Of a stretch of DNA of 32,162 nucleotides, positions 11,793-20,778 are shown one piece after another. Below the pieces are notes generated by a model. The model saw only the letters and a program-made list of their open reading frames with translations, ran no database searches and was not told the origin of the DNA. Made by a program: the position numbers and the translations under genes. Numbering within the stretch: position 1 is the first letter of the stretch; the number at the start of each line of letters is the position of its first letter. Location: assembly GCA_948356915.1 (NCBI GenBank), contig CAOJCG010000004.1:1-32162 (forward strand). The letters are read 5' to 3'. The DNA is from an uncultured Clostridiaceae bacterium. Lineage in GTDB: Bacteria > Bacillota > Clostridia > TANB77 > CAG-508.

Positions 11793-13181
11793 ATGTCAGA
11801 ATTAACAATGGAAAAACTAGTTGCATTATGCAAAAACAGAGGGTTTGTATATCCAGGATCAGAAATATATGGAGGTTTAGCAAACTCTTGGGACTATGGC
11901 CCATTAGGAGCAGAACTTAAGAAAAATATTAAAGATGCATGGTGGAAAAAATTTATAACCGAAAATAGGCACAATGTAGGAATAGATGCTGCAATAATGA
12001 TGAACCCACAAGTTTGGGTAACAACAGGTCACGTAGGAGGCTTTTCAGATCCATTAATAGACTGTAAGGCATGTAAAACAAGACATAGAGCAGATAAATT
12101 AATAGAAGAATGGGGATTTAAACAAGGAAAAGATATTTCTGGTTTAGATGGTTGGACAAATGAACAATTGGTAGAATATATAAATGAAAATAAAATTACA
12201 TGTCCTAACTGTGGAAAGCAAGAATTTACAGAAATAAGAAAATTCAATTTAATGTTCAAAACATTTATGGGAGTTACAGAAGATGCTAAATCAGAAGTAT
12301 ACTTAAGACCAGAAACAGCACAAGGAATGTTTGTAGACTTTAAAAATGTACTACGTACTACAAGAAGCAAAATGCCAATGGGAATAGGTCAAATGGGACG
12401 TTCATTCAGAAATGAAATAACACCAGGGAACTTCATATTTAGAACAAGAGAGTTTGAACAAATGGAACTAGAATTTTTCTGCAAACCAGGAACAGACTTA
12501 GAATGGTATGAATACTGGAAAAACTTCTGTAAAGATTGGTTAATAAACTTAGGAATAAAAGAAGAAAACTTAAGAATGAGAGAACACTCAAAAGAAGAAC
12601 TATCATTCTATAGTAAAGGAACAACAGACATAGAGTTCTTATTCCCATTTGGTTGGGGAGAACTATGGGGAATAGCAGATAGAACAGACTATGACTTATC
12701 AAGACATATGGAAGCATCAAAACAAGATTTAACATACTTAGACCCAGAAACAAATGAAAAATATGTACCATACTGTGTAGAACCAGCAGTTGGTGTAGAT
12801 AGAATATTCCTAGCAATGTTATGTAACAGCTACGAAGAACAAGAGATAGCAGAAGGAGACACAAGAACAGTATTGCACTTACACCCAGCGATAGCACCAT
12901 ACAAAGTAGCAGTACTTCCACTATCTAAAAAATTAAGTGAAAAAGCAGATGAAGTATATACAAAATTATCAAAGAAATTTATGTGTGACTATGATGAAGC
13001 GGGCTCAATAGGAAAACGTTATAGAAGAGAAGACGAAATAGGAACACCTTACTGTGTAACAGTAGATTTCGACACATTAGAAGATGACACAGTAACAATA
13101 CGTGACAGAGACACAATGGAACAAATACGTTTAAAAATAGATGAAATACCAGCATGGTTAGAAGAAAAAATAGAATTTTAA
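11793..13181 (+). CDS. glyS: Glycine-tRNA ligase (single-chain, dimeric type)
   Basis: A class II synthetase of 462 aa that charges tRNA-Gly in protein synthesis. It starts after AAGAAGGAGG with [23 protein letters not shown] and [14 protein letters not shown] zinc-type insert follows ([20 protein letters not shown]). Motif 2 is seen in [13 protein letters not shown] with [14 protein letters not shown], and motif 3 in [15 protein letters not shown]. The C-terminal anticodon-binding domain begins at PYKVAVLPL. Length and order match the archaeal/Firmicutes homodimer. Expression is set by the T-box upstream. A mutated fragment of the same gene lies at 13531-13768. Confidence 0.97.
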
Positions 13182-13186
13182 AAATA

Positions 13187-13225
13187 ACAAAACAATCGAA
13201 GAATAAAAATTTTCGGTTGTTTTGT
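13187..13225 (+). terminator. glyS terminator
   Basis: ACAAAACAATCGAA (13187-13200) pairs with TTCGGTTGTTTTGT (13212-13225) in a 14-bp stem with one G-U pair. The 3' arm supplies T-rich sequence. The duplicated cassette begins in this 3' arm. Confidence 0.75.
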
Positions 13226-13253
13226 CATATTAATAGAACCTTTGTCGAAGGTA

Positions 13254-13282
13254 TAGAAAAATAAAGTAACATAATATATAAT
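13254..13282 (+). promoter_or_regulatory. Sense promoter of peptide gene, copy 1
   Basis: TAGAAA (13254-13259), 17 nt, TATAAT (13277-13282). It has a perfect -10 and a weak -35 and is conserved in copy 2. The predicted start is near 13289, giving an mRNA of about 140 nt. Confidence 0.6.
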
Positions 13283-13323
13283 AAACAAACCTTTTGCTAA
13301 AAGGTAGAAGGGAGGTTTTCTAT

Positions 13324-13392
13324 ATGAAAAGACTACCAAAGATAATAGCCTTAATCATAGTTTTATACATATTAAAAGAATTCAACGATTAA
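13324..13392 (+). CDS. 22-aa hydrophobic peptide, candidate type I toxin, copy 1
   Basis: The peptide is MKRLPKIIALIIVLYILKEFND: a basic start, one membrane-spanning hydrophobic stretch (about residues 5-17) and a charged tail. AAGGGAGG (13308-13315) lies 8 nt before ATG, the same spacing as in copy 2. Compared with copy 2 (14448) there are eight base changes: five silent and three conservative (P5L, I11V, I12L), so the peptide is under selection. Size and character fit type I toxins such as Ibs or Fst, which insert into the membrane. It lies after glyS and its terminator and has its own promoter. Toxicity is inferred from architecture only; a non-toxic membrane peptide is possible. Confidence 0.8.
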   Translation: MKRLPKIIALIIVLYILKEFND

Positions 13393-13394
13393 GG

Positions 13395-13468
13395 AAAAAT
13401 CCCGTTGTGACAGCAACGGGATTTTTTACTTCTATATGAAAAGATTTACTGCATAAATCTTTAAGACT
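13395..13468 (-). ncRNA. Predicted antisense RNA (antitoxin), copy 1
   Basis: Transcription from the minus-strand promoter at 13475-13503 would start near 13468 and stop in the shared terminator near 13395, about 74 nt. The RNA would fold into a 5' hairpin (13440-13462, 9-bp stem), an unpaired linker (complement of 13429-13439) and the terminator hairpin. The linker with the hairpin edge is the exact complement of 15 nt around the peptide start codon (13318-13332), because TTCTATATGAAAAGA occurs in both places. Binding would cover the AUG. The RNA itself has not been observed. Confidence 0.75.
13399..13428. terminator. Two-way terminator, copy 1
   Basis: The stem TCCCGTTG/CAACGGGA with loop TGACAG is flanked by A-run and T-run, so it can end both the peptide mRNA (+) and the antisense RNA (-). 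Two base pairs differ from copy 2 in a compensatory way (T-A to C-G and G-C to A-T). Confidence 0.88.
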
Positions 13469-13474
13469 AAATAT

Positions 13475-13503
13475 ATAATACTATATTTTCCAATATATGT
13501 CAA
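13475..13503 (-). promoter_or_regulatory. Antisense promoter, copy 1
   Basis: On the minus strand TTGACA (13503-13498), 17-nt spacer, TATTAT (13480-13475). The -35 is a perfect consensus. It fires toward the peptide gene and is identical in copy 2. Confidence 0.85.
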
Positions 13504-13530
13504 TAAAAAAATAAATTTTTTAAAATTTCA

Positions 13531-13768
13531 TGAAAAGGAATAACAGATATAGAAGTCTTATTCGCATTTGGTGGGGGAGAACTATGGAAAATAGCAGATA
13601 GAGCAGACAACGATTTATCAAGGCATATTGAAGCCTCAAAGCAAAAACTAACATATTTAGCCCCAGAGACAAACAAAAGAGATATGTACAATACTGTGTA
13701 GAGACAGCAGTTGGCGTAGATAGAATATTATTAAGTATGCTATGCAACGCCTATGAAGAACAAAAAAT
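13531..13768 (+). pseudogene. Decayed glyS fragment
   Basis: About 238 nt match glyS from position 12614 onward at roughly 80 percent (my estimate by eye): for example AACAGATATAGAAGTCTTATT against AACAGACATAGAGTTCTTATT with shared GGGGAGAACTATGG, then GCAGTTGGCGTAGATAGAATATT. A single-base loss near 13680 breaks the frame and both ends are missing. It sits directly after cassette copy 1 and before copy 2, as expected if glyS plus cassette was duplicated in tandem and the second glyS decayed. Confidence 0.85.
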
Positions 13769-13795
13769 CAAAATCGATTTTTACTATACTATAAA

Positions 13796-13824
13796 ACATG
13801 GATGCTAAATTTTAGCATCCATGT
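13796..13824. terminator. Terminator of the AbrB-like gene
   Basis: ACATGGATGCTAAA and TTTAGCATCCATGT form a 14-bp, almost perfect palindrome. On the minus strand it is followed by TTTTATAG, placing it just after the AbrB-like gene stop. Confidence 0.8.
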
Positions 13825-13843
13825 TGCAATAAAAGCCTGAAAA

Positions 13844-14264
13844 TTAATAATCTACATTTTCTTCATCACGATAAGCTTCGAATGCCTTTAAGGTTTCTTG
13901 TATATTAGCAAGCATATCAGATAATTTTTGCATACCATTTTGACTTTTGTAGATATAAAGATATGATCTTCCTTCAAGTGACGTAGCAAAGTAATAGTCT
14001 TCACCATCTCCTAAAGCTACATCCACATTTTCTGGGATAGCGATTGAATGATTTTCATTGTCATAGTCACAGTTACCCAAAAACTTAAAGTCATCAGGAA
14101 GTGGAAGGAGTTTCAAAATAATAGCTATACCTATTTCTCCCTGATTGTTCATAAAAAATACAAGTTTTGTTTTTTTAGATGTTTCGTAATCTGCAAGGAA
14201 TACACAATCTGCTACAAGATCCTTTGGAATTACAATCCGTCCATTCTCATCTTTTTTTTGCCAT
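13844..14264 (-). pseudogene. AbrB-like DNA-binding protein with A8-tract frameshift
   Basis: With ATG 14264-14262 (ribosome site AAGGAGG, 9-nt spacing) the protein starts MAKK, then DENGRIVIPKDLVADC, an AbrB/MazE-type beta strand and turn. It continues through MNNQGEIGIAIILKLLP to a second strand-turn pattern (HSIAIPENVDVALGDGEDYY) and ends near 139 aa. The frame is broken by one extra A in an A8 run right after the start (14252-14259). A downstream ATG at 14152 would give only 102 aa and no ribosome site. It has its own promoter and terminator. Base composition and codon use, including a CGG, are less AT-biased than its neighbours, suggesting transfer. The AbrB assignment is from motif only. 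Confidence 0.6.
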
Positions 14265-14297
14265 ATATAATTACCTCCTTAGGTTTTTGATAAAAAT

Positions 14298-14326
14298 AGT
14301 ATAGCACAAACAATAAATTATGTAAA
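14298..14326 (-). promoter_or_regulatory. Promoter of the AbrB-like gene
   Basis: On the minus strand TTTACA (14326-14321), 17-nt spacer, TATACT (14303-14298), 34 nt before the start codon. Confidence 0.75.
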
Positions 14327-14377
14327 GAGTAAAAATAAAAAAATTTTGTAATATTAATAGAACCTTTGTCGAAAGTA

Positions 14378-14406
14378 TAGAAAAATATAGTAACATAATG
14401 TATAAT
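14378..14406 (+). promoter_or_regulatory. Sense promoter of peptide gene, copy 2
   Basis: TAGAAA (14378-14383), 17 nt, TATAAT (14401-14406); the same elements and spacing as copy 1. Confidence 0.6.
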
Positions 14407-14447
14407 AGACAAGCCTTTTACTAAAAGGTAGAAGGGAGGTTTGTTGC

Positions 14448-14516
14448 ATGAAGAGATTACTAAAGATAATAGCCTTAGTCTTAGTATTGTACATATTAAA
14501 AGAGTTCAACGATTAA
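14448..14516 (+). CDS. 22-aa hydrophobic peptide, candidate type I toxin, copy 2
   Basis: The peptide is MKRLLKIIALVLVLYILKEFND, 19 of 22 residues identical to copy 1, with the same basic start, single hydrophobic helix and KEFND tail. AAGGGAGG (14432-14439) is again 8 nt from ATG. A 6-bp hairpin, CCTTTT-act-AAAAGG, lies just before the ribosome site as in copy 1. The bases around the start (TTGCATG) differ from copy 1 (CTATATG), and the antisense RNA of this copy carries the matching change. Function as a membrane-acting toxin is inferred from design, not shown. Confidence 0.8.
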   Translation: MKRLLKIIALVLVLYILKEFND

Positions 14517-14518
14517 GG

Positions 14519-14592
14519 AAAAACCCCATTGCTGCAACAATGGGGTTTTTTACTATTGCATGAAAAGATTTATTGTATAAATCTTTGAGATT
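14519..14592 (-). ncRNA. Predicted antisense RNA (antitoxin), copy 2
   Basis: It would start near 14592 and end near 14519, about 74 nt. The layout is a 5' hairpin (14564-14586), a linker (complement of 14553-14563) and the terminator hairpin. Positions 14556-14570 repeat the peptide start region 14444-14458 with one difference (A for G), which becomes a G-U pair in the RNA duplex. All 15 positions can therefore pair with its own mRNA. Confidence 0.75.
14524..14551. terminator. Two-way terminator, copy 2
   Basis: CCCCATTG (14524-14531), loop CTGCAA, CAATGGGG (14538-14545), then T6. A5 on the left gives the T-run for the minus-strand RNA. Confidence 0.88.
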
Positions 14593-14598
14593 AAATAT

Positions 14599-14627
14599 AT
14601 AATACTATATTTTCCAATATATGTCAA
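14599..14627 (-). promoter_or_regulatory. Antisense promoter, copy 2
   Basis: Minus strand TTGACA (14627-14622), the same 17-nt spacer as copy 1, TATTAT (14604-14599). Confidence 0.85.
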
Positions 14628-14662
14628 TAGAAAAACAAAAAATAAAAAATTATAAAAAAATC

Positions 14663-20473: not shown

Positions 20474-20494
20474 ATAAAAAATAGAGTAGAAAAT

Positions 20495-20778
20495 AAATCG
20501 TTAAGACTTAGTAAACGGGAAGTTGTTACTAAGGCAAAAGCCTTAAAAAGCTTGCGTATTTATTTTCGCATTCCGCTATGAAAAATAAAAGAAGAAAAGT
20601 CTTCTTTCATTTTCGTGTGGAATGAAAATGAAAGGAGAATTTTTTCTATATCGTAGGAATTTTCTGACCAAGGGGAAGAAAATCTACATACGAGATAGTT
20701 ATGGCGAGTTTTAGATTTTACTAAAGCATAACTTATCTGTACGCATTAAAATGCTACAGTTAAGAAATCTTACGATTT
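20495..20778 (+). ncRNA. Candidate pseudoknotted RNA between fhs and folC
   Basis: This 284-nt stretch has no gene. The ends pair: 20495-20501 with 20772-20778, then 20503-20506 with 20768-20771. Inside are CTTAGTAA/TTACTAAG (20507/20526) next to AAGGC/GCCTT (20531/20540), and hairpins at 20559-20589, 20588-20607 and 20604-20634 (11 bp, perfect). The loop at 20570-20576 can kiss the loop at 20617-20623 over 7 bp. An H-type pseudoknot is formed by 20679-20686 with 20712-20719 and 20694-20703 with 20727-20737. A last hairpin lies at 20737-20759. No terminator separates it from folC. It could be a cis-regulator or an independent RNA. I do not recognise the class. Confidence 0.65.

Follow-up and report, generated by a model that had tools for sequence, protein, structure and literature searches.

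How might a bacterium hold in check a hydrophobic peptide of 22 residues that it encodes in two closely similar cassettes? The question is raised by a stretch of 32,162 nt from an uncultured Clostridiaceae bacterium (GenBank assembly GCA_948356915.1, contig CAOJCG010000004.1), the whole of which is called the window here. An earlier note on the window had proposed that the cassettes, A and B, are two copies of a likely undescribed type I toxin–antitoxin locus. The cassette parts that it listed are confirmed here, and no convincing match was found in Pfam, NCBIfam, PADLOC or Rfam. The cassettes are probably type I modules resembling the par locus, in which the message for the peptide would be silenced by a predicted antisense RNA. 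The peptide is likely to be the toxin, of an apparently undescribed family. A and B belong to a family of cassettes of uncultured Clostridia, some of them from animal guts, that is also present on a few viral contigs.

Organization of the two copies

Copy A (13220–13519) and copy B (14344–14643) are 87% identical over 300 nt. Each starts with a forward promoter-like site and continues through a leader hairpin, the ribosome-binding site AAGGGAGG and the 22-codon gene into an A-run, a hairpin and a T-run. The start region is then repeated, ahead of a second hairpin and, finally, the reverse promoter TTGACA-N17-TATTAT. The 3′ end of AAGGGAGG is located 8 nt upstream of the start codon in both copies. 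The promoter, ribosome-binding site, peptide gene, terminator, repeat, hairpin and reverse promoter listed in the earlier note are all present in A and B (Table 1).

The start-region repeat and RNA pairing

The predicted antisense RNA would carry a linker complementary to the region of the start codon, as had been proposed, and the underlying repeat matches at 15 of 15 bases in A and at 14 of 15 in B. Homologous loci were taken from two profile searches. These gave 105 places, leaving out G174 and G300 (where the match falls within a frame of 279 and of 99 residues respectively), the remnant G107:C1:108578 and the class hit G575; G298 was not fetched, so that 104 loci were read. Nine had no usable start or a product of <18 residues, leaving 95 that were tested for the repeat. 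Removal of a further 12 (hairpin of <10 pairs, insertion, frameshift or <90 nt following) gave 83, reduced to 67 non-redundant loci at <90% identity; the leader test took 65 of these and the wobble test 64.

The stretch from −12 to +36 around the start codon is repeated behind the terminator in 74 of the 95 loci at ≤1/100 shuffles, and in 82 at ≤5/100. The mean repeat score against the own gene is 13.23 in the 67 loci, compared with 7.57 against the genes of other loci, and 8.36 was the highest value in 10,000 random pairings. Within its own genome the cognate repeat is strictly the best in 46 of 47 cases, and modelled duplex energies rank the cognate first in 45 of 47. Since the linkers of the copies differ, the prediction is that each paralogue in a cell is reached mostly by its own antisense RNA.

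Covariation is seen in register-aligned loci (14 distinct of 18, from six genomes of one genus). Bases −5 to 0 vary across loci and yet agree between the repeat copies in 78/84 (shuffled mean 40.2, maximum 61 of 10,000) using an anchor that was picked to fit the cognate copy and favours it. The test was repeated with every pairing re-anchored, giving agreement in 84/90 against a mean of 50.1 and a maximum of 69.

The remaining differences between repeat copies are directional. Passing from the message copy to the other copy, G-to-A and T-to-C changes leave a G·U pair; with C-to-T and A-to-G changes the pair is broken. Transitions that keep G·U number 38 and those that break it 9 (Fisher 7.9e-6), compared with 43 and 35 in non-cognate alignments; a further 42 differences are transversions. 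Copying at the level of DNA would give no such bias, so that the cognate ratio speaks against it, and the bias favours RNA pairing on these strands. A second, collinear repeat (DRa/DRb-like) is present in 10 of 67 loci at ≤1/60 shuffles and is absent in A and B. A repeat in the leader, resembling that of a few loci, was significant in just 3 of 67.

Promoters, terminator and folding

Loci that keep the peptide and lack both reverse promoter and repeat had been named in the earlier note as one observation that would contradict it, and a search of relatives for peptide, terminator and reverse TTGACA promoter had been suggested. In addition to the repeat in 74 of 95 loci, the relatives have a reverse promoter of at least 10/12 consensus bases behind 65 of the 67 non-redundant loci, with a 17-nt spacer in 62. 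The forward strand of the same stretch reaches 10/12 in 20 of 67, and shuffles average 8.6/12.

The forward promoter was examined in A and B, and elsewhere in this genome by way of an upstream-element pattern. Promoter-like sites in the scanned region numbered 19, compared with 10.2 in shuffles. The element TTTGTCGAA (13241–13282 and 14365–14406) is found 27 nt upstream of TATAAT at five cassettes of this genome, including one with a broken frame (L005). Its pattern has eight matches genome-wide, six of which are at cassettes or at a remnant (L007), while a reversed control pattern has three. This is possibly an operator or a promoter element.

The terminator had been described as acting in both directions. 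A scan with a consensus finds a terminator-like site in A only, and there on the + strand only; the hairpin of B, and − strand use of both hairpins, are predicted by folding and from the A-run and T-run that are present in A and B. Both runs (≥4 A before the hairpin and ≥4 T after it) are found in 52 of 67 loci, and the hairpin starts ≤18 nt from the stop codon in 62. The predicted antisense RNAs of A and B fold better than 200 of 200 shuffles (z −5.4 and −5.9 respectively). RNAalifold placed a stem inside the promoter part of RNA model R1, and R1 was therefore used as a finder only.

The peptide

The genes of A and B differ by eight base changes, five silent and three altering an amino acid. 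The earlier note had these counts right, and was generous in calling the three conservative, as one is Pro5Leu. It had taken this comparison to show selection, for which it is weak alone; better evidence is the ratio of non-synonymous to synonymous differences (pN/pS) of 0.27 over 26 independent pairs across the family, indicating purifying selection on the peptide. In the 62 genes of exactly 22 codons, position 6 is always Lys or Arg, position 10 is Leu in 61 and position 18 is Lys in 52. In 43 peptides, the Kyte–Doolittle value of residues 7–17 averages 3.46 and the net charge +1.4, a composition suggestive of a membrane role.

For the peptide, Pfam, NCBIfam and PADLOC gave only weak profile matches, by one of 30 members each: the ilv operon leader peptide (NCBIfam, E 0.0054; Pfam, E 0.065), TUNAR (E 0.12) and a subunit related to OadG (E 0.27). 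At the gathering score, Rfam over the window found a tetrahydrofolate (THF) riboswitch elsewhere and nothing at the cassettes; the 23 matches at E up to 10 are every one under their own gathering score. The titles and abstract openings found by literature searches describe neither the peptide nor the layout in these bacteria, which is no proof of absence, surveys in subscription journals lying outside the search.

Distribution

The count of two copies in the earlier note is right for the window and too low for the genome (1.95 Mb). Searching its DNA adds L002, a third close copy, L004 and L006, which are intact and more distant, and the broken-frame copy L005, making six peptide sites of which five are intact. 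In addition, L008 keeps the antisense part and lacks the 5′ portion of its peptide gene, and L007 consists of the promoter side only. Seven modules in the genome, four of them within 8 kb on contig C2, match an RNA model of the antisense part at E <1e-19. Arrays were seen in two species, with four cassettes or remnants at G000:C2:164–172 kb and three at G330:C43:10–16 kb.

In the family, the peptide profile (E up to 0.01) matches 33 of 195 genomes, from 19 of 39 genera; at least one of these matches (G174) is a chance match in a longer frame. At E up to 0.001, a wider profile matches 56 of the 287 genomes searched in the order, none of them from outside the family of the window (the share of other families in the set is not stated). 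In the class it matches 3 of 291: the genome of the window, one of the same genus and a 14-residue match inside a frame of 235 residues. A DNA pattern that links the ribosome-binding site to the start and the peptide core, built from family members and requiring exact matches, finds 61 stretches in a one-genome-per-species collection of 84,980. All 61 titles are of metagenome assemblies of Clostridia, Clostridiaceae, Clostridium or Eubacteriales, some labelled sheep ileum, water-deer cecum or ‘Lapin’. Their translations have 21–24 residues in 57 cases; L164 and L168 have a stop at codon 3, and L159 and L182 a longer frame. In L079 and L091, as in L164 and L168, the third codon counted from the best start is a stop (two species). 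Copies of this kind may be decayed, or may use another start.

The DNA pattern is found on five viral contigs as well, two of which were checked for phage genes. The cassette of L188 adjoins a tape-measure gene on the opposite strand, with major head and major tail genes present on the contig, and on L191 there are genes for a terminase and an anti-repressor. Scanning viral contigs by protein alignment produced 600 pattern matches, and tblastn at E 1e-3 bore out none of them. As a tblastn query, peptide B had no match at E up to 10 among 50,697 phage records or 72,556 plasmid records, a 22-residue query having little power. By eye, the sequence that follows the cassette is the same in related species (L013/L014/L017; B/L015).

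Loss of the peptide gene and a second peptide

Antisense modules occur in 10 of 27 genomes of the genus and number 38, one of 39 rows having been removed as a sense-strand artefact. By our reading 22 of the modules have an intact peptide gene and one encodes a different peptide of 40–45 residues, the gene being lost or broken in 15. The peptide gene and terminator of L238 and L239 are missing from between the two direct repeats, a deletion that may have arisen by recombination or slippage. An antisense part that is kept where the peptide is lost would fit a toxin and its antidote, in a pattern drawn from peptide and antisense searches that each have their own detection bias. The peptide genes of L048, L049 and L050, from three species, are split after the same codon by inserts that resemble each other, measure somewhat more than 100 nt and look like a small mobile repeat.

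A second family of peptides, of ∼40–45 residues and of the type DLVWRLVELLLQK, occurs in a similar chassis at L009/L231 (G000:C2:127291–127410), L232–L237 and L241; 6 of 117 genomes of the family have it. By eye this chassis comprises a ribosome-binding site, a terminator, a locus-specific start-region repeat and, in most, a TTGACA reverse promoter. Model R1 matches its antisense part weakly (E 0.014 in G000 and 2.4e-4 in G630).

Feature coordinates and neighbouring sequence

Table 1. Positions of cassette features in the window and the basis of each assignment
Feature	Position	Strand	Basis
A, predicted peptide promoter TAGAAA-N17-TATAAT	13254..13282	+	10/12 consensus
A, leader hairpin, extending into ribosome-binding site	13290..13311	+	scan and folding; modest family support
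A, ribosome-binding site AAGGGAGG	13308..13315	+	sequence
A, direct repeat 1 TTCTATATGAAAAGA, spanning start codon	13318..13332	+	repeat test
A, peptide gene MKRLPKIIALIIVLYILKEFND	13324..13392	+	profile match; family-wide pN/pS
A, terminator hairpin with A-run and T-run, predicted two-way	13394..13427	.	+ strand scan, folding, runs
A, direct repeat 2, whose complement lies in the predicted antisense RNA and matches repeat 1	13430..13444	.	repeat and wobble tests
A, 10-bp hairpin near 5′ end of predicted antisense RNA	13440..13462	-	copy comparison, folding
A, predicted antisense RNA, ∼75 nt, start deduced from promoter	13394..13468	-	inference; homologues by model R1
A, reverse promoter TTGACA-N17-TATTAT	13475..13503	-	11/12 consensus
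B, predicted peptide promoter TAGAAA-N17-TATAAT	14378..14406	+	10/12 consensus
B, leader hairpin	14414..14435	+	scan and folding
B, ribosome-binding site AAGGGAGG	14432..14439	+	sequence
B, direct repeat 1 TTGCATGAAGAGATT	14444..14458	+	repeat test
B, peptide gene MKRLLKIIALVLVLYILKEFND	14448..14516	+	profile match, locus reading
B, terminator hairpin, predicted shared	14518..14551	.	folding, A-run/T-run; absent from consensus scan
B, direct repeat 2 TTGCATGAAAAGATT	14556..14570	.	repeat test
B, hairpin near 5′ end of predicted antisense RNA	14564..14586	-	copy comparison, folding
B, predicted antisense RNA	14518..14592	-	inference from promoter and folding; homologues by model R1
B, reverse promoter TTGACA-N17-TATTAT	14599..14627	-	11/12 consensus

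Between A and B, the segment 13530–13740 reads by eye as a partial, decayed second copy of the gene at 11793–13181, which is presumably a glycyl-tRNA synthetase. An open reading frame on the minus strand (13844–14275) has, by eye, a possible AbrB-like start out of frame upstream, near an A-run, and is perhaps a decayed gene. The THF riboswitch is at 20480–20580, upstream of an open reading frame that we take to encode folylpolyglutamate synthase.

Discussion

From the promoters and the terminator, each cassette would produce two convergent transcripts. The predicted antisense RNA would begin at the conserved reverse promoter and end at the terminator that it has in common with the peptide gene. 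The terminator stem-loops of the two predicted RNAs are complementary in sequence, and could make the first contact, as in par. Pairing could then extend to the antisense linker, complementary through the direct repeat to the start region of the message; that this would be real RNA pairing is supported by the covariation and by the direction of the wobble changes. The duplex would stop ribosome binding, perhaps exposing the RNA to RNase III. On loss of the antisense RNA the message would be translated, and the composition of the peptide and the action of known type I toxins suggest that the membrane would be damaged. Any benefit to the host might be a stress response, phage defence or phage maintenance, which look alike on the present sequence evidence.

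With rather less assurance, we think it likely that the family as a whole comprises lineage-specific toxin–antisense modules of uncultured gut Clostridia and their phages. One par-like chassis would carry at least two different toxin peptides, and a short address at the start codon would be rewritten in both RNAs at each duplication, so keeping up to five paralogues per cell largely independent.

Several observations weigh against the par-like reading of the cassettes. The repeat misses the 1/100 threshold in 21 of 95 loci and the 5/100 threshold in 13; among the latter L050 has its insertion and L064 reads past the usual stop. Two of the 82 that pass at 5/100 (L048 and L049) are interrupted genes, with the match away from the start codon. 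Across all 67 loci the cognate repeat is strictly the best in 38, and best or tied in 45. In the modelled duplexes of the genome of the window, the start region of A pairs slightly better with the C antisense RNA than with its own (−20.8 and −19.3 kcal/mol respectively), and that of B about equally with the A antisense RNA (−23.9 against −23.4 kcal/mol). The reverse promoter of L036 and L105 falls below 10/12, and L036 is also without a significant repeat. One of the two runs flanking the hairpin is missing in 15 of 67 loci. Support for the leader stem is modest, with a mean longest stem of 8.2 bp compared with 6.1 and 18 of 65 loci beating all 20 shuffles. Some of the 15 broken modules have a damaged antisense promoter too (L242; weakened in L227). 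The hydrophobic core of the peptide is short, at 11 residues, and the loci share descent, so that the counts are not fully independent.

The short core could belong to a small membrane or regulatory peptide that is no toxin, its translation being under the same antisense RNA. The toxic action is a prediction, and the weak profile matches to the ilv operon leader peptide, TUNAR and the OadG-related subunit are in keeping with such a role. We consider this unlikely. With the hairpin starting at most 18 nt after the stop codon in 62 of 67 loci, a leader peptide would mostly have no operon downstream to act on, while the multiple copies per genome, the copies on viral contigs and the peptide losses next to a retained antisense part are what addiction or defence modules would show. 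Moreover IbsC, truncated to 15 residues of which at least 10 are hydrophobic, stays toxic according to the available part of a review (PMC8309996). Multiplicity would be expected too if the cassette were a mobile repeat or miniature inverted-repeat transposable element (MITE), its direct repeats kept alike by DNA recombination in place of RNA pairing, and the stretch lost in L238 and L239 indicates that the repeats may recombine or slip. Yet such an element should not exhibit a G·U-keeping bias that is strong in cognate alignments and slight in non-cognate ones; the peptide frame is also under purifying selection, and cassettes precede the same downstream sequence in relatives (by eye), all of which makes this very improbable. 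Between them the wobble bias, the selection and the hairpin directly after the gene disfavour the MITE, gene conversion and the leader peptide.

Convergent promoters, a shared terminator, direct repeats at the start codon and a possible leader stem would also be expected of a diverged true member of the Fst/par group, its toxin descended from Fst, and 22 residues are too few to exclude a common origin. Such descent is nonetheless doubtful. None of the 67 peptides has PxxxG or PxxxC, nor any tryptophan; the profile PF13955 (Fst_toxin) matched none of 30 members and nothing in the genome, and FstAT, which we take to be the name of an Rfam antitoxin RNA family, is not among the 23 Rfam matches at E up to 10. 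With PxxxG absent from all 67 and no match to PF13955 or FstAT, we describe the type I modules proposed here as probably working like par, and do not file them as Fst.

Type I toxins are short and variable, and so are easily overlooked by annotation; none of the libraries searched names the cassette peptide. The family provides a natural series of matched RNA pairs, whose pairing code could be read from sequence alone, and its strand-specific wobble signature may help to find similar loci without RNA data. It also exhibits loss of the peptide gene between repeats, and viral copies, in bacteria present here only as metagenome assemblies.

Comparison with known type I systems

An antisense RNA complementary to the toxin message, one criterion for type I, is here a matter of sequence and covariation. 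For the layout (convergent promoters, shared terminator and direct repeats), par/Fst was the right comparison for the earlier note to draw. As described in the available text of PMC7472228, the Fst/Ldr toxin family, with par of plasmid pAD1, has convergent promoters, a shared two-way terminator and direct repeats overlapping the start codon, together with a stem near the ribosome-binding site and co-existing paralogues with differing repeats. The same text calls PxxxG an essential motif of the Fst toxin, which the ∼22-residue cassette peptides lack, and states that not all par homologues have the U-turn motif YUNR; the loop of the message terminator contains this motif in just 22 of the 67 loci. 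The cassettes further differ from par in having mostly one strong repeat and, so far, in being found only in one clostridial family and on a few viral contigs.

The parallel with Ibs/Sib, which the earlier note drew for the size of the peptide, stands there and does not extend to the layout. Sib RNAs are encoded opposite the ibs gene itself. In contrast the predicted antisense RNA of A (13468–13394) has no overlap with the frame at 13324–13392, only with the terminator, and would reach the start through the repeat. The likeness is in the peptide, hydrophobic and similar in size to the 19 residues of IbsC (PMC8309996, available part).

The type I toxins of Clostridioides difficile are unlike the cassette peptide, having 34–53 residues and a lysine-rich tail, and the available text of PMC6563280 does not use the words ‘direct repeat’ or ‘terminator’ for their modules. 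As described there, modules of the CD2907.1–RCd9 type resemble the cassettes in being convergent, present in several copies, mostly cognate-only in their action and in some cases carried by prophages.

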